Shown here: piece by piece, positions 36,305 to 48,640 of the stretch
Numbering within the stretch: position 1 is the stretch's first letter
How the letters are laid out: every line of letters starts with the position of its first letter
Origin: a virus
IMG/VR virus record: IMGVR_UViG_3300025099_000001
Location: 1 to 64,000 of that record
Reading direction: 5' to 3' (one strand)
Length of the DNA: 64,000 nucleotides
Notes under the pieces: model-generated
What the model was told of the DNA's origin: nothing
The model's database searches: none
The model's input: the letters and a program-made list of their open reading frames with translations, nothing else
Made by a program: the position numbers and the translations under genes

Positions 36305-36745
36305 ATGCCAAAGTCTACTCACAACTACCTAAAGTATTGGAGAGTTATACGTTATTGGGTAAAGGCTAAATACAATCTTACAACCCCTGATATAGAAATG
36401 ATTCTATTTTTATATAGTGAAGAGTATTTTAATAAAACAAAGTTTAAAGAGTTTGAAGAATTAATGTCTTGGGATATAAAAAGATTTGATAGACTACTTA
36501 GGGATGGGTGGATTCATGTATGGAGAAAAGGATATGGTAAACATACAACATTATACGAGCTTTCCTACAAAGGGAAGCGAGTAGCGAGTACAATTTATAA
36601 AAAACTTAATGGTGAAGAGATAGCAGAGTCACCATCTATTAATCCTTTATTTAGAGCGGACGCTTCTTATATGGATAAGGTTTATAGAAATTCTATAAAA
36701 GAACTTAATGAATTTATAAAACAACAACGATATCTCTCTCAGTAA
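36305..36745 (+). CDS. Winged-helix-like regulator (146 aa)
   Basis: A 146-aa basic protein (MPKSTHNYLKYWRVIRYWVK). Residues about 25-105 look like a MarR-type winged helix: NLTTPDIEMILFLYSEEYFN (helices), then RFDRLLRDGWIHVWRKGYGK (recognition helix and wing), then TLYELSYKGKRVASTIYKKL. It is transcribed away from the late genes, and its start overlaps their promoter, so autoregulation or control of the early/late switch is likely. Its 3' end overlaps the convergent groES by 32 nt. Similar proteins occur in flavobacterial phages as far as I recall. Confidence 0.65.
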   Translation: MPKSTHNYLKYWRVIRYWVKAKYNLTTPDIEMILFLYSEEYFNKTKFKEFEELMSWDIKRFDRLLRDGWIHVWRKGYGKHTTLYELSYKGKRVASTIYKKLNGEEIAESPSINPLFRADASYMDKVYRNSIKELNEFIKQQRYLSQ

Positions 36746-36971
36746 TAATAGTAAAAGTATCATTATGTATAAGCATACTAAAGCCAGCAGACTTATCATA
36801 ATAAATAATTTGACCTTCTTTGATTTCTGAGACATCAGTACCTGGTTTTATTACTTCACCTTTTTTATATCTAAACTCATCTGCATCTTCTGCAGTAAGT
36901 ATTAACCCTGACTTAGTTTTTAATTCTTCTTTTACAGGTTTTATTATAACATACTTGCCAATTGGTTTCAT
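36714..36971 (-). CDS. groES: GroES co-chaperonin (85 aa)
   Basis: An 85-aa protein with the full GroES pattern: MKPIGKYVIIKPVKEELKTK, a mobile-loop segment KSGLILTAED with the hydrophobic LIL tripeptide that docks on GroEL, then YKKGEVIKPG, a KEGQIIYYDKSAG strand, and the closing DTFTIITERDIVVVL. Slightly shorter than E. coli GroES (97 aa). It lies at the end of the groEL operon, in reverse of the bacterial groES-groEL order. Role: lid of the chaperonin cavity. Confidence 0.88.
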   Translation of the reverse strand: MKPIGKYVIIKPVKEELKTKSGLILTAEDADEFRYKKGEVIKPGTDVSEIKEGQIIYYDKSAGFSMLIHNDTFTIITERDIVVVL

Positions 36972-36974
36972 ATC

Positions 36975-37145
36975 TTAATGTTTAAATATAGCATAAATTT
37001 TTGCTTTTCTTGATTGCTCAGTAATACGTCCTTTTATAGTTCTTGTAGGAACTTCACATATTAATTCTTTACGAGGTTCATCTTCTATTATTTGAGCCGA
37101 AGGCTCAAATTTTGGATTTTTTGAGTTAAGCTTTCTTTTCTTCAC
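36975..37145 (-). CDS. Small basic protein in the chaperonin operon (56 aa, GTG start)
   Basis: A 56-codon frame with a GTG start overlapping the previous gene by 20 nt. It reads KKRKLNSKNPKFEPSAQIIE, then EVPTRTIKGRITEQSRKAKI, and is basic. It ends 3 nt before groES starts, so it is packed into the operon. A strong 9-bp hairpin lies within it (37090-37110). Function unknown. The non-ATG start lowers confidence. Confidence 0.45.
   Translation of the reverse strand: MKKRKLNSKNPKFEPSAQIIEDEPRKELICEVPTRTIKGRITEQSRKAKIYAIFKH
37090..37110 (-). promoter_or_regulatory. Strong hairpin between groEL and groES
   Basis: A perfect 9-bp inverted repeat, ATTTGAGCC / GGCTCAAAT with a 3-nt loop, within the 56-aa frame of the groEL-groES transcript. 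There is no T-run after it on the minus strand, so it is not an intrinsic terminator. An RNA-processing or stability site is possible. Confidence 0.4.
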
Positions 37146-37218
37146 GTTTCTCTATGTTTTTAATTATGTTGTTTGTTTCTGTTTTTACACCAAACAGTTT
37201 TAAAATAAACTCTATCAT
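37126..37218 (-). CDS. Tiny protein following groEL (30 aa)
   Basis: A 30-codon frame, MIEFILKLFGVKTETNNIIK, whose ATG overlaps the groEL stop (ATGA). Amphipathic N-terminal helix, basic tail. The coupling to groEL suggests translation, but the size makes it uncertain. Confidence 0.4.
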   Translation of the reverse strand: MIEFILKLFGVKTETNNIIKNIEKREEKKA

Positions 37219-38804
37219 GCTCTCATATTTGTTACAATAGCATTAGTGCTAAGTATAGTTGTTGCAACACTTACTGCATTAGTCAATGCGTTCTTTGTTA
37301 CTTTCAGCGGATCAATAACACCCATCTCATACATATCTCCGTACTTATTATTCTTTACATCATAGCCGTAGTTATATTTTTTATCAAATACTTGGTCAAT
37401 AACTTTATCATTATTTTTACCAGCGTTATTTAATATTTGTATAAGTGGTGAGCGAAGAGCTGATTCTAATATTAAGACAGCATCTTTCTCATCTTGGTTT
37501 TTGGTTTTGGCTTTTAACTTTAATGATTCTCTAAACAATGCTATACCTCCACCCGCTAATATACCTTCTTCAAGTGCTGATCTTACTGCACACACTGAAT
37601 CATCTACTCTGTCATACTTTTCTTTTTGTTCCATCTCAGAGTTACCCCCTACATAAATACAACCTATAGCACCCGCTAAACTTGCTATACGTTCTTTTAT
37701 AAATTCTTTAGTAGACTTATCTTTTGTGTTTTTTTGTTGAACTTTTAATTCAGCAATTCTATCGTTTAACTCTGGTGTGTTATTGTCTTTTTTAAATATT
37801 ACAGTTGAATGCTCTCCTGCAATAACTTTATCTGCACTACCTAAGTCATTAGGCATAATTAAACTTAAATCATCACCAGTCTTCTCTGAATAATATTTAG
37901 CACCAACTGACATAGCAATATCTTGCATAAGTTCATGTTGCTTGTATCCAAACTGAGGAGGAGCTATATTACAAAACTTTAAACCATTACGAACTACGTT
38001 AGCCGCTAAAGTATTAATAACATTAGTTGAGCAAGGGGCAATGATTAACAGTTTGTCTCCGTTGTTTATTACAGGCTTTAACACGTTCTCTATTTGAAGT
38101 ATGCTATTAATTTCTGCATCGCAAACTAAAATCTTAACATCTTCAAGTATACACTCATCTTTCTTTTGATTATTTATAAATAAATTAGAAGACCAACCTC
38201 TTGCTATTTTTATACCGTTAGTAACCTCAGCATAGGTTTCAGATGTCATAGACTTTTCTACAGTTACCATTCCGTTTATTCCAACTTGTGTATAGGCATC
38301 TTTAATTATTTTACCTATAGTCTTATCATTATTGGCAGAGATAGACGCAACGTCTAACAATCTTTCCTCTGTTACTTTTTTTGAATTACTTTTTAAATTA
38401 GATATAATTTTAGATGCGTGATTGTTAATATGCCTAATAACTTCTGTTGTGTTTGACTCTGATGTTAATGTTTGCTGACCAGCTTTAACCAAAGCTTCTG
38501 TTAGAACAATAGCTGTTGTTGTCCCATCACCTGCAGACTGAGCTGTACGGCTTGAAGCTTCCTTCATCATCCTAACTGCTAAGTTTTCTATAGGATCATT
38601 TAAAAACACAGACTCAGCAACTGTTACACCGTCCTTAGTAACTGTCATGCCTGAAGTATGATTTGGTGATTCTAATAACACAGTCTTACCTAAAGGTCCT
38701 AATGTACTTTTGACTGCTTTGGAAATTTTAGTAATTCCTGTAATTAATTTCTGACGAGCTTCATCATCAAAGCTAAGCGTCTTTGGTATATAACCTTGTT
38801 CCAT
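37215..38804 (-). CDS. groEL: GroEL chaperonin (529 aa)
   Basis: A full-length group I chaperonin. Visible signatures: VKSTLGPLGKTVLLES (P-loop region), KDGVTVAESVFLNDP, QSAGDGTTTAIVL (nucleotide-binding GDGTTT near residue 90), GINGMVTVEKSM, RVDDSVCAVRSALEEGILAG with the following GGG, and DVKNNKYGDMYEMGVIDPLK. The apical domain is more diverged than the equatorial one. The C-terminus lacks the Gly-Met repeat and ends NMRA. It probably folds phage virion proteins, alone or in mixed function with host GroEL. Phage GroELs are known from some giant Pseudomonas phages. It has its own upstream TATATTTG. Confidence 0.95.
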   Translation of the reverse strand: MEQGYIPKTLSFDDEARQKLITGITKISKAVKSTLGPLGKTVLLESPNHTSGMTVTKDGVTVAESVFLNDPIENLAVRMMKEASSRTAQSAGDGTTTAIVLTEALVKAGQQTLTSESNTTEVIRHINNHASKIISNLKSNSKKVTEERLLDVASISANNDKTIGKIIKDAYTQVGINGMVTVEKSMTSETYAEVTNGIKIARGWSSNLFINNQKKDECILEDVKILVCDAEINSILQIENVLKPVINNGDKLLIIAPCSTNVINTLAANVVRNGLKFCNIAPPQFGYKQHELMQDIAMSVGAKYYSEKTGDDLSLIMPNDLGSADKVIAGEHSTVIFKKDNNTPELNDRIAELKVQQKNTKDKSTKEFIKERIASLAGAIGCIYVGGNSEMEQKEKYDRVDDSVCAVRSALEEGILAGGGIALFRESLKLKAKTKNQDEKDAVLILESALRSPLIQILNNAGKNNDKVIDQVFDKKYNYGYDVKNNKYGDMYEMGVIDPLKVTKNALTNAVSVATTILSTNAIVTNMRA

Positions 38805-39901: not shown

Positions 39902-40579
39902 ATGAACACAAAATCGTTAATCGGACTTACGAATCAGAAATCATCTGATATCGTATCACAGTGGAGTAATCAGTATTTAAATGCTGACTTTAGTATTACA
40001 ATGTTGAATAAGGTATCCACTAAATTAGAGTGTGACGATAAGGTACAAGTTGTACTATTTATCAAATATTGTCAAGCATTTAACATTAGACTTGATTCTT
40101 GTCGCACTCAAAATAAAATAGGTAATCCATACACGGCATTCAGTCAAATATTATGGATAGCAAAATTTGGTGATGGAGTTGCTACTCGCCAACTGACTCA
40201 CGCACTCAAAGAATTATGGAAAGGTAATGCAGATGTAATCAAAAACTGCAAACAAATGGGTGGTAGTTTTGTGTCATCATTATTTGAGGGTGATATTGAT
40301 TCATCATTCAGCTACGCAGACAATGGTAACAAACGTGCATTGATTCAAGGATTCTGTGATGATAACAACAGAGATGAACAAGAAATGCAAAAGGTGTTAA
40401 GTAACTATCAAGATGAAGAAATGTATTTCAATTATTGGATGCATAGTGGTAATGTTGTTGAGAATGTTGATGGTAGTTTTTCAACTCAAGATGCCCAATA
40501 CAGAAACAAGTTTGTAAGTATTGAACAACTAAAAAACTATTACAATAAAGAATTTGCATATTGGAATTTAGTTAAATAA
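39902..40579 (+). CDS. Early protein of unknown function (225 aa)
   Basis: A 225-aa protein beginning MNTKSLIGLTNQKSSDIVSQ, with WSNQYLNADFSITMLNKVST and a C-terminal NYYNKEFAYWNLVK. No domain recognised and no membrane segment; mixed helix with many Asn and Asp. As the first gene of the rightward early unit it may be an immediate-early protein, for example a host take-over factor (inference). Its codons 8-11 contain a GGACTTACGA motif (39923-39932). A structured RNA element follows its stop. Confidence 0.5.
   Translation: MNTKSLIGLTNQKSSDIVSQWSNQYLNADFSITMLNKVSTKLECDDKVQVVLFIKYCQAFNIRLDSCRTQNKIGNPYTAFSQILWIAKFGDGVATRQLTHALKELWKGNADVIKNCKQMGGSFVSSLFEGDIDSSFSYADNGNKRALIQGFCDDNNRDEQEMQKVLSNYQDEEMYFNYWMHSGNVVENVDGSFSTQDAQYRNKFVSIEQLKNYYNKEFAYWNLVK
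39923..39932 (+). repeat. GGACTTACGA motif (copy 1)
   Basis: Exact GGACTTACGA, in frame 1 of the 225-aa gene (read as GGA CTT ACG). Part of a dispersed 10-mer family limited to the early region. Confidence 0.6.
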
Positions 40580-40591
40580 AACCAACTCACT

Positions 40592-40646
40592 CCACGTGCC
40601 TCAATGCTAATCGCATTGGGGTTTTCGTGGTAGAGGACTAATCCTC
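40592..40646 (+). promoter_or_regulatory. Nested-hairpin RNA element, copy 1
   Basis: Outer stem CCACG (40592-40596) / CGTGG (40626-40630), internal loop TG opposite TTTT, inner 9-bp stem 40599-40607 / 40613-40621, loop TAATC. An extra hairpin GAGGA-CTAA-TCCTC follows at 40633-40646 in this copy only. It begins 13 nt after the stop of the 225-aa gene. No T-run follows, so it is not a terminator. Confidence 0.75.
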
Positions 40647-40667
40647 GCAAAATTAAAATCAAACAAA

Positions 40668-41132
40668 ATGAACTTAGAACAATTTAAAAACATAGATAAA
40701 TATAAAGTAACTAATTTAAGTAATGCAATTGATAATGCAATTGATGTATCATTTAGTCAAATGATTGACACAGTAAGAACTCAATGTTATATGTCACAGA
40801 AACAAGATAGTTGGGAAGACTGTGATGAATTAGAATTTCTTGAAGACATTCCAATGTTATTCACTGATGGTAGAGATATCAAAGAGTCAATTAAAAATCA
40901 AATGAAACGTGTAGTTATATCAGCACTAACTGATTCAGATTGGGTAGGTAAGAATGATGCAATGTACCAACATTTACCTTCTGATATTGAAGATAGACTA
41001 CATAAAAATTCTGATGAATATCAATCACAATTTGAGACTGAGACAGAAAGACTTGAACGTGAAGATGAAGAAGAATATGATATTAGTCCAAATGGAAAAT
41101 CTAAACCATCTGATTCTTTTGGCTGGAAATAA
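40668..41132 (+). CDS. Early acidic protein (154 aa)
   Basis: A 154-aa, strongly acidic protein (MNLEQFKNIDKYKVTNLSNA; late part LEREDEEEYDISPNGKSKPS). The first 120 residues are helical and contain a small Trp/Cys cluster (SWEDCDELEFLEDIPMLF). The acidic disordered tail is typical of small phage inhibitors, but no family is recognised. It lies between the first two structured RNA elements. Confidence 0.5.
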   Translation: MNLEQFKNIDKYKVTNLSNAIDNAIDVSFSQMIDTVRTQCYMSQKQDSWEDCDELEFLEDIPMLFTDGRDIKESIKNQMKRVVISALTDSDWVGKNDAMYQHLPSDIEDRLHKNSDEYQSQFETETERLEREDEEEYDISPNGKSKPSDSFGWK

Positions 41133-41152
41133 ATTTTGATCATAAGAAATTT

Positions 41153-41194
41153 CCACGTGCCTCACTACTAATCGTAGTGGGGATTTCGTGGTAG
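41153..41194 (+). promoter_or_regulatory. Nested-hairpin RNA element, copy 2
   Basis: Outer stem CCACG (41153-41157) / CGTGG (41187-41191), internal loop TG opposite ATTT, inner 9-bp stem 41160-41168 / 41174-41182 (CCTCACTAC / GTAGTGGGG), loop TAATC, then TAG. Begins 21 nt after the stop of the 154-aa gene. Same architecture as copies 1 and 3 with compensatory changes. Confidence 0.75.
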
Positions 41195-41222
41195 AAAACA
41201 AATAATAATTAAATTAAATAAA

Positions 41223-41867
41223 ATGAAAAAGACAGTAAAAAAACTTGTGATGAAGGCAATGAGAATGCCTCACATACATCACATCAATAAACAAGGTAAT
41301 GCAATTGTTAGAAAAAAAGAGTTGCAACACATGATATGTCAAGCACAGAAAATGATTGAACATAAAAATAAACCTCTTGGTGAAAATTCAGATTCAGTAA
41401 CTGAAAAAACTGATGACAATGGTAATATATACTACACTCATTCAACAGGATTTTATAATGTAACAATTGGAAAATGGGTTGATGAAGGTTTGTTGACTCG
41501 TAGCAAGGAAAATGGATATAAATTAACAGAGTTAGGTAGATTATTTGCATCCACAGATACACGTGCATATGAGATTGATAAGTGGAAACGTAAATTCAAA
41601 TTAGAAAAGGCACGTGCTGATAGATTAAATTCTCACACTAATGATTTGTTAATTCAGAAAAGAAAATTACAAGACAGAATTGATGAGATTTATTTTGGAA
41701 AAGAATTTATGGATTCAGATGACAAAGGTAGTTTACAAGAATATTTTGTTACAGATGAATGTGAATCTATTGTGACATCATCACCACCAAATTCAATCAT
41801 CAACACTTGCTTAACTAATATGCAAGAAAGTTTAAATTGCATAACACAACATATTAATAAAGAATAA
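41223..41867 (+). CDS. Early protein with possible winged-helix segment (214 aa)
   Basis: A 214-aa protein with a very basic N-terminus (MKKTVKKLVMKAMRMPHIHH) and a segment near residues 78-120 (FYNVTIGKWVDEGLLTRSKE, then GYKLTELGRLF) that reads like the recognition helix and wing of a winged-helix domain. A coiled coil follows (KWKRKFKLEKARADRLN...LLIQKRKLQDRIDE). It could be an early DNA-binding regulator. The assignment is tentative. Confidence 0.45.
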   Translation: MKKTVKKLVMKAMRMPHIHHINKQGNAIVRKKELQHMICQAQKMIEHKNKPLGENSDSVTEKTDDNGNIYYTHSTGFYNVTIGKWVDEGLLTRSKENGYKLTELGRLFASTDTRAYEIDKWKRKFKLEKARADRLNSHTNDLLIQKRKLQDRIDEIYFGKEFMDSDDKGSLQEYFVTDECESIVTSSPPNSIINTCLTNMQESLNCITQHINKE

Positions 41868-41884
41868 TTTTGTTTGTTTTTGTT

Positions 41885-41926
41885 CCACCAACCTCACTGT
41901 TAGTCGCAGTGGGGATTTGGTGGTAG
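41885..41926 (+). promoter_or_regulatory. Nested-hairpin RNA element, copy 3
   Basis: Outer stem CCACC (41885-41889) / GGTGG (41919-41923), internal loop AA opposite ATTT, inner 9-bp stem 41892-41900 / 41906-41914 (CCTCACTGT / GCAGTGGGG), loop TAGTC, then TAG. The fifth outer pair is C-G here instead of G-C in copies 1-2, a compensatory double change. Begins 18 nt after the stop of the 214-aa gene. Confidence 0.75.
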
Positions 41927-41959
41927 TGGGCAATAGTGCCTTAATTAAATTACAAACAA

Positions 41960-42259
41960 ATGAAAAAATTAACTGACACAACTGATATGCTTAATGAAGT
42001 ATATAGAGTTGTACTTAATCACTATGTTGCAATTGGTAGAGATAATTCAAAAACTATTTTTGATAAGATAGATGATTTGCAAAGAACAATAAAAAATAGT
42101 ATTGCTATCATTCCTATTCAAGATTATGAACTCACTGATTCTGGAAATTTAAAATTATTTAGAAACGGAGTTTTGTTTAATACTTATTATGATGTAGATA
42201 GTATTGCACAAGCTAAAATAATAATTGATGATGAAAATAAAAAACTTGGTTATGAATAA
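41960..42259 (+). CDS. Small early protein (99 aa)
   Basis: A 99-aa protein, MKKLTDTTDMLNEVYRVVLN, with a helical first half and a beta half (DYELTDSGNLKLFRNGVLFN). No family recognised. The last codons overlap the ATG of the next gene by 8 nt, so the two are coupled. Confidence 0.5.
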   Translation: MKKLTDTTDMLNEVYRVVLNHYVAIGRDNSKTIFDKIDDLQRTIKNSIAIIPIQDYELTDSGNLKLFRNGVLFNTYYDVDSIAQAKIIIDDENKKLGYE

Positions 42260-42465: not shown

Positions 42466-42511
42466 GGCACGATTTCGTATCTAAAAAGATATGATGTCGT
42501 GTCTTTTTTTT
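42466..42511 (+). terminator. Long intrinsic terminator of the first early unit
   Basis: A 17-pair stem (42466-42482 with 42487-42503, one T-T mismatch, three G-U pairs, AAAA loop) is followed by eight T (42504-42511). It ends the unit starting at 39902. Confidence 0.9.
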
Positions 42512-42518
42512 GTCCTAT

Positions 42519-42579
42519 GGACTTACGAGCTCTATGGACTTACGAAAAAAAATACAAAAAGATCCGTAGGGACTTACGA
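42519..42579 (+). repeat. Three tandem GGACTTACGA motifs in an intergenic region
   Basis: Exact copies at 42519-42528, 42536-42545 and 42570-42579, the first two preceded by CTAT. They lie between the terminator of one early unit and the promoter-like element of the next. A protein binding site array or origin-type element is possible. Confidence 0.75.
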
Positions 42580-48579: not shown

Positions 48580-48599
48580 TAATTGTGTGTAGTAAAAGG

Positions 48600-48630
48600 G
48601 AGGGGAAGATATTTCTTTCCCTCTTTTTTT
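48600..48630 (+). terminator. Intrinsic terminator after the SSB-like gene
   Basis: GAGGGGAAG (48600-48608) pairs with CTTTCCCTC (48615-48623, one G-U) with a 6-nt loop, then seven T. It starts 20 nt past the stop at 48579. Confidence 0.9.
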
Positions 48631-48640
48631 ACTATATTCT

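Follow-up and report, generated by a model that had tools for sequence, protein, structure and literature searches.

The polycistronic early RNA of phage T7 is cut at five positions by host RNase III (PMC4858673), and in plant mitochondria tRNA-like t-elements act as intergenic cleavage sites (PMC8003010). T4-type phages carry promoter-early stem-loop (PeSL) cassettes, in which stem-loops are repeated between early accessory genes, and the put RNA of phage HK022 comprises two tandem stem-loops in early phage RNA. Here we describe a nested-hairpin element that lies three times between consecutive genes in a 64,000-nt stretch of phage DNA (hereafter the window) taken from an IMG/VR virus record of 65.6 kb.

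Like the T7 RNase III sites, the element is a stem with an internal loop between consecutive genes, is independent of the genes that it separates and occurs in several copies per phage, co-transcription being inferred from gene order. Unlike them, its helix measures only ~14 bp instead of about two helix turns (~20 bp), so that the helix-length criterion is not met. It is also strongly conserved in sequence (lower inner stem, U-rich loop and NGUGG-UA), is often followed by a second hairpin, and belongs to other phages and another host phylum, where cleavage is inferred. As with t-elements and the tRNA punctuation of plant and animal mitochondria, a structured intergenic RNA would mark mRNA ends, and relatives of the window phage carry miniature tRNAs in the equivalent slot; the element itself, however, has neither an acceptor stem nor a T-arm with a TTCRANY loop, and only its partner module is tRNA-like. 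It resembles PeSL cassettes and put RNA in its repetition between early accessory genes and its tandem stem-loops, respectively. In contrast to PeSL, it contains no embedded early promoter, also follows capsid genes and shows RNA covariation; in contrast to put, it does not lie directly downstream of an early promoter, occurs several times per operon and is unrelated in sequence. Intrinsic terminators likewise combine a GC-rich hairpin with a few T residues, but the T-run of the element is too short and a conserved, covarying arm lies beyond it.

Results

Three copies between early genes of the window phage

The window phage is distantly related to Elemovirus, a genus of Flavobacterium phages, with a primase that is 41% identical over part of its length; among its virion proteins, the portal, the terminase and others have matches in PHROG families. 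All three copies of the element lie on the plus strand within one group of early genes:

39902..40579, + strand: early gene 1, 225 aa, function unknown, weak match to PHROG 15266; upstream of copy 1
40592..40630, + strand: element copy 1 (sequence, pattern match, folding)
40592-40596/40626-40630, + strand: copy 1 outer stem, CCACG/CGTGG
40597-40598, + strand: copy 1 5' internal loop
40599-40607/40613-40621, + strand: copy 1 inner stem
40608-40612, + strand: copy 1 loop, TAATC
40622-40625, + strand: copy 1 3' internal loop, TTTT
40631..40633, + strand: conserved TAG immediately 3' of the copy 1 outer stem
40633..40646, + strand: hairpin II of copy 1, GAGGA-CTAA-TCCTC; ATG at 40668, 21 nt downstream
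40668..41132, + strand: early gene 2, 154 aa, no assigned family; separates copy 1 from copy 2
41153..41191, + strand: element copy 2 (sequence, pattern match, folding); outer stem CCACG/CGTGG, inner stem CCTCACTAC/GTAGTGGGG, loop TAATC
41192-41194, + strand: TAG of copy 2
41223..41867, + strand: early gene 3, 214 aa, no assigned family; separates copy 2 from copy 3
41885..41923, + strand: element copy 3 (sequence, pattern match, folding); outer stem CCACC/GGTGG, inner stem CCTCACTGT/GCAGTGGGG, loop TAGTC
41924-41926, + strand: TAG of copy 3
41928..41941, + strand: hairpin II of copy 3, core GGCA-ATAG-TGCC; ATG at 41960, ~18-19 nt downstream
41960..42259, + strand: early gene 4, 99 aa, no assigned family; follows copy 3
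42466..42511, + strand: probable genuine intrinsic terminator: GGCACGA...TCGTGTC enclosing an inner stem, followed by T8 (read from the sequence)

A first-pass annotation, made from the sequence alone, had proposed three copies of one design at 40592, 41153 and 41885, each with a 5-bp outer stem, a 2/4-nt internal loop, a 9-bp inner stem, its loop and a following TAG. Each of these points held: one degenerate 42-nt pattern fits all three copies without a mismatch, and it had no match in 100 dinucleotide-preserving shuffles. The distances given there, 13-21 nt from a stop codon to the element, were also confirmed (13, 21 and 18 nt from the stop codons at 40579, 41132 and 41867 for copies 1, 2 and 3), and the outer stem is followed by the next start codon within a narrow range of ~31-37 nt. 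Folding of the three intergenic gaps gave z-scores of -5.8, -3.6 and -4.8, and the nested hairpin, a helix of 5 + 9 bp, is present in their minimum-energy or centroid structures. Copy 2 has no hairpin II.

The annotation's statement that no T-run follows any copy was only partly right, since a short TTTT or ATTT comes after the inner hairpin. This run belongs to the internal loop, whose 3' side it forms; it is too short, and G follows too soon, for an ordinary terminator. The conclusion drawn there, that the copies are not intrinsic terminators, stands, as a terminator scan called none of the three. The same scan also misses the hairpin at 42466..42511, whose stem is interrupted; that terminator closes the early gene group and contrasts with the elements.

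An element family in phages of Bacteroidota

A pattern scan found the TARTC form of the element in nine IMG/VR contigs. Further loci, fetched only via similarity of the phage primase, contained additional copies with other loops (GAAA, TTAC, TAAC, CAAAAC), so that the design is conserved and the loop is not. A covariance model detected strong copies in more than 30 IMG/VR virus records, all in sense to the genes and with 1-4 copies per phage, and a looser pattern matched 101 contig stretches in IMG/VR. The core consists of the 9-bp hairpin, a T-rich 4-nt/variable internal loop and the 5-bp outer stem, then UA. As a consensus it reads CCUCA-N-loop-N-UGGGG, UUUU or AUUU, a 5-nt arm (GGUGG, CGUGG, UGUGG, CUAGG, GUAGG, CGUAG or CGUGU) and UA. 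The part of the set found by pattern is biased towards CCUCA/UGGGG by the design of the search, and the presence of TA directly 3' of the arm in all 84 dereplicated elements is partly due to that design as well.

The carriers are phages of (mainly marine) Bacteroidota. Three of them (G045, G035, G027) have the element and share no or one gene with the window phage, while the near-complete G002, whose gene matches to the window phage number 54, lacks it. The element is thus dispensable, as near-complete relatives such as G002 do without it. No gene was found that is common to all carriers and confined to them, because some carriers have no genes in common. The carrier in record IMGVR_UViG_2684623221_000002 (L198, G045), which shares no genes with the window phage, has an integrase-like gene and might offer a route to a cultivable host.

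None of the 4227 families of Rfam 15 reached its gathering score in the window and six relatives, and relaxed thresholds gave nothing. A BLAST comparison of the window region and consensus elements with 50,697 phage records revealed no true copy in any isolate record; the element is missing from Elemovirus (elemoF), from the Manatee Spring relative MW202828 and from the post-capsid gap of Muminvirus snusmum. A second pattern scan for TAGG-type arms returned five hits, none credible. The element is also essentially missing from bacterial genomes: 395 Bacteroidia genomes gave four hits without a real copy, and a scan of GTDB genomes gave ten hits, about the chance level, with one exception on a phage contig binned in an Aliivibrio metagenome-assembled genome (MAG). 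That contig (JAAGZR010000163.1; L219/L286, contig C687 of G058) resembles an element-bearing phage of the window group, and its placement under the Aliivibrio label is probably a binning error. The literature searched contained no account of the motif or of mini-tRNA punctuation in phages.

Both stems covary on the sense strand

Among 13 distinct ungapped copies, 95.1% of cells are paired and double changes occur at 8 of the 14 pairs. Their covariation score was 0.482, compared to 0.174 +/- 0.029 in shuffles (0/500 as high) and 0.01-0.08 in slid controls. Outer arms pair as CCACG/CGTGG, CCTAG/CTAGG, CCTAC/GTAGG, TTACG/CGTAG, ACACG/CGTGT, CTACA/TGTGG and CTACC/GGTGG. A five-pair outer stem forms in 35 of the 84 dereplicated elements, against 19.1 +/- 3.2 with permuted arms (maximum 29 in 2000 permutations). 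Neither the covariation test nor the arm permutation fully removes relatedness. The 5-bp outer stem is not formed in more than half of the copies, and it is weak or absent in some clades (the L069 and L178 groups).

The strand under selection can be read from the tolerated mismatches. Inner stems contained 49 G-U against 5 A-C oppositions, and outer stems 15 against 0, in loci that had been retrieved through protein similarity and anchored on the 3' side alone. In the lower inner stem of the family, CCUCA/UGGGG, a U-G is nearly fixed. As G-U is tolerated and A-C is not, selection acts on a sense-strand RNA and not on a DNA palindrome. The element is therefore a sense-strand RNA structure under selection, in which both stems covary. 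The initial claim of selection for RNA structure, inferred from paired substitutions among three copies, was thus upheld, and a search for homologues with conserved pairing, proposed with it as a check, did not refute it, as many were found in which double changes keep the pairing.

Placement between genes

Copies sit between co-directional genes, most of them in a short gap from stop to start. The distance from the stop codon to the inner stem is mostly 19-28 nt, and that from the outer arm to the next start ~15-40 nt, with narrow classes at ~15-18, 22-25 and 36-37 nt. The neighbours fall into 51 upstream and 51 downstream protein clusters, a few of which stem from decoy hits; the flanked genes are diverse and often absent in close relatives without the element. 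One and the same methyltransferase gene occurs with or without the element, depending on the phage. In one group of siphoviruses, which have no or one gene in common with the window phage, the element lies just 3' of the HK97-type major capsid gene, so the setting after consecutive early genes, as first described, was too narrow. We conclude that the element is gene-independent and phage-borne; by inference, a host factor is the simplest candidate for its reader.

A TAnnTTTG box in the 40 nt that precede the inner stem is present in only 3 of 84 elements, and a few copies (in L048, L056 and L004) lie in a longer 5' leader behind such a box. The element was also considered as a promoter and rejected, as TAnnTTTG is absent in the great majority.

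Hairpin II and miniature tRNAs

Hairpin II takes forms such as GGCA-AUAR-UGCC, GACA-AUAG-UGUC, GGUA-AUAG-UACC and GAGGA-AUAA-UCCUC, among others; its stem covaries, and it ends mostly 17-25 nt before the AUG. By a strict definition it lies 3' of the element at 27 of 101 unique sites and 3' of T-arm modules at 7 of 18, compared to 0.26% of random positions, and it is absent at many element copies. In three related phages, at one type of locus, it directly follows a promoter-like TATCTTTG/TATATTTG box (TAnnTTTG), which may point to a message 5' end. This evidence counts little, because hairpin II is not enriched after promoter-like TAnnTTTG boxes in general (7/3674).

Asking what else precedes hairpin II revealed a second intercistronic module in relatives of the window phage, a miniature tRNA. 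It has a 6-7-bp acceptor stem, an 11-12-nt linker, a T-arm with the loop UUCGAUU and the acceptor 3' strand, and lacks the D arm and the anticodon arm. The linker usually contains UGG, possibly a mimic of the D-loop. Comparison of the unique forms shows covariation in both the acceptor and the T stems (AGAATAG/CTATTC, AGGATAG/CTATCC, ACTGGA/TCCAGT, CGGTATG/CATACC and GCGAGA/TCTCGC), and one form matched 38 IMG/VR stretches. ARAGORN at default settings does not call these modules, which were located as follows:

L073, 3353-3394 and 5313-5353: mini-tRNAs
L070, 2148-2189 and 3690-3730: mini-tRNAs
L187, 1389-1430 and 2928-2968, reverse strand: mini-tRNAs
L059, 1182; L066, 4279; L308, 1462; L313: further mini-tRNAs

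Mini-tRNAs occupy gaps between early genes, at a distance of 0-16 nt from the stop codon upstream, and alternate with elements within one operon in L073, L070 and L187. Moreover, the gene family MGYxTD is followed by a mini-tRNA in L059, L073 and L168 and by the element in L005. The two modules are thus exchangeable in equivalent slots, and the mini-tRNAs may be a finding in their own right.

Discussion

We lean towards reading the element as an intercistronic punctuation signal that processes mRNA or defines its ends. Cleavage, end protection and the involvement of a host nuclease are inferred, without transcript-end data. In this model, the polycistronic phage transcript would be cut at or just after the stem-bubble-stem. 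The cut could fall within the U-rich loop, by analogy with the T7 RNase III sites, or at the UA (GUGG^UA) between the outer stem and hairpin II. The cutter would most likely be a host RNase, because phages with essentially no common genes carry the element. The upstream message would then end in the stable inner hairpin, protecting its 3' end, and the downstream message would begin with hairpin II, protecting its 5' end. tRNA-like structures are classical substrates of RNase P and RNase Z, and mini-tRNAs may do the same job via one or both of these host tRNA enzymes. RNA processing or 3'-end stability had already been suggested for the three window copies and remains the preferred role; the exchange with mini-tRNAs provides independent support, since RNA processing is the best common function of a tRNA-like structure and an element that occupy the same slots. 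Furthermore, since the covarying outer arm lies beyond the T-run, the functional RNA reaches past this run and is not a terminated end. Against the processing view, a ~14-bp helix is short for RNase III. The lower inner stem and NGUGG-UA are conserved beyond what RNase III would need, and a specific binding protein may therefore be the real reader.

The strongest alternative is a binding site for a phage or host protein, by which a 5'-leader regulatory RNA would control translation or stability of the downstream gene without cleavage. Conservation of the lower inner stem, the U-rich loop and NGUGG-UA beyond the needs of pairing, the few narrow classes of distance to the next start, and the copies in longer leaders behind a TAnnTTTG box all speak for it. 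However, ~50 unrelated downstream gene clusters do not form a common regulon, carriers with 0-1 common genes offer no evident common phage-encoded binder, the upstream stop codon is kept at an equally narrow distance, and the mini-tRNA exchange and gene independence remain unexplained; we consider this reading unlikely but cannot exclude it. A partial intrinsic terminator, stepping expression down along the operon as an attenuator, would fit the GC-rich 9-bp hairpin with TTTT or ATTT at once behind it and the position after stop codons, including that of the capsid gene, a place at which leaky terminators are common in phages. It is likewise improbable: the T-run comprises 3-5 residues at most before G-rich sequence, the criterion of at least 5 T in the 8 bases after the hairpin is not met, and the terminator scan was negative. 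The covarying outer 3' arm and UA beyond the T-run indicate selection on read-through RNA, and the same gene group is closed by an ordinary hairpin and T8.

For a put-like antitermination or pause RNA acting on RNA polymerase one could cite the two consecutive stem-loops and a hairpin ~11 nt 5' of a conserved G-rich string, and the string GGTGGTAG recalls ops. Copies after genes 1, 2 and 3 of the group are not promoter-proximal, though, for a put element a single action per transcript suffices, and GTGG is not fixed and covaries (CTAGG, GTAGG, CGTAG), which leaves little room for this view. Hardly more can be said for a cassette boundary at which repeats promote recombination of accessory early genes, as is reportedly proposed for the PeSL elements of T4-type phages. 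The diversity of the flanked genes, their frequent absence from close relatives without the element, and the methyltransferase gene found in either state would suit it, and it is compatible with processing; but shuffling by DNA homology needs neither RNA covariation nor G-U tolerance, and inner stems differ strongly among copies of one genome. An N4-like role, in which the hairpin would serve a virion RNA polymerase as its promoter, was suggested by three copies 5' of three early genes and by giant virion-type proteins in the phage. We consider it very unlikely: two giant proteins gave no RNA polymerase match to solved structures (by sequence comparison only), G-U tolerance indicates selection on sense RNA and not on a template-strand DNA hairpin, and the 9-bp inner stem fails the short-stem criterion. 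In addition, copies lie from gene to gene and not at operon starts, and unrelated phages carry the element.

The punctuation reading, which we continue to prefer, concerns a structured RNA family outside Rfam that is defined by covariation and occurs in phages with no other common genes. Their hosts are Bacteroidota, a phylum largely without Shine-Dalgarno use and one in which phage gene expression is hardly known. A true processing signal would carry the principle known from the T7 RNase III sites over to another design. A bolder reading, which we doubt slightly more than we believe, is that marine Bacteroidota phages use an interchangeable RNA punctuation code: the element and tRNA mimics would stand in equivalent slots, each then followed by a small 5'-end hairpin, and host tRNA-processing and other RNases would yield single-gene messages. 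To our knowledge, tRNA-like punctuation of phage mRNA has not been described before, and the mini-tRNA exchange, if true, would be the first case; it would also make the host enzymes that mature these transcripts directly testable.

Additional features of the window phage

Three GGACTTACGA repeats lie at window positions 42519-42528, 42536-42545 and 42570-42579, directly 3' of the terminator that closes the early gene group. Repeats like those of the window (GGACGCACGAC, GGACTTACGA) are also found 3' of hairpins in L005 and L011, and repeats of the GGACTTACGA type may constitute a protein-binding array. At 48595-48640, just 5' of the primase gene, a strong purine/pyrimidine hairpin (GGGAGGGGAAGA-tatt-TCTTTCCCTCTT) is followed by a T-run and is kept in the relatives L005 and L017. 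Phage-encoded GroES-like and GroEL genes (36714-38804) adjoin the early region, as they do in Elemovirus and in MW202828.
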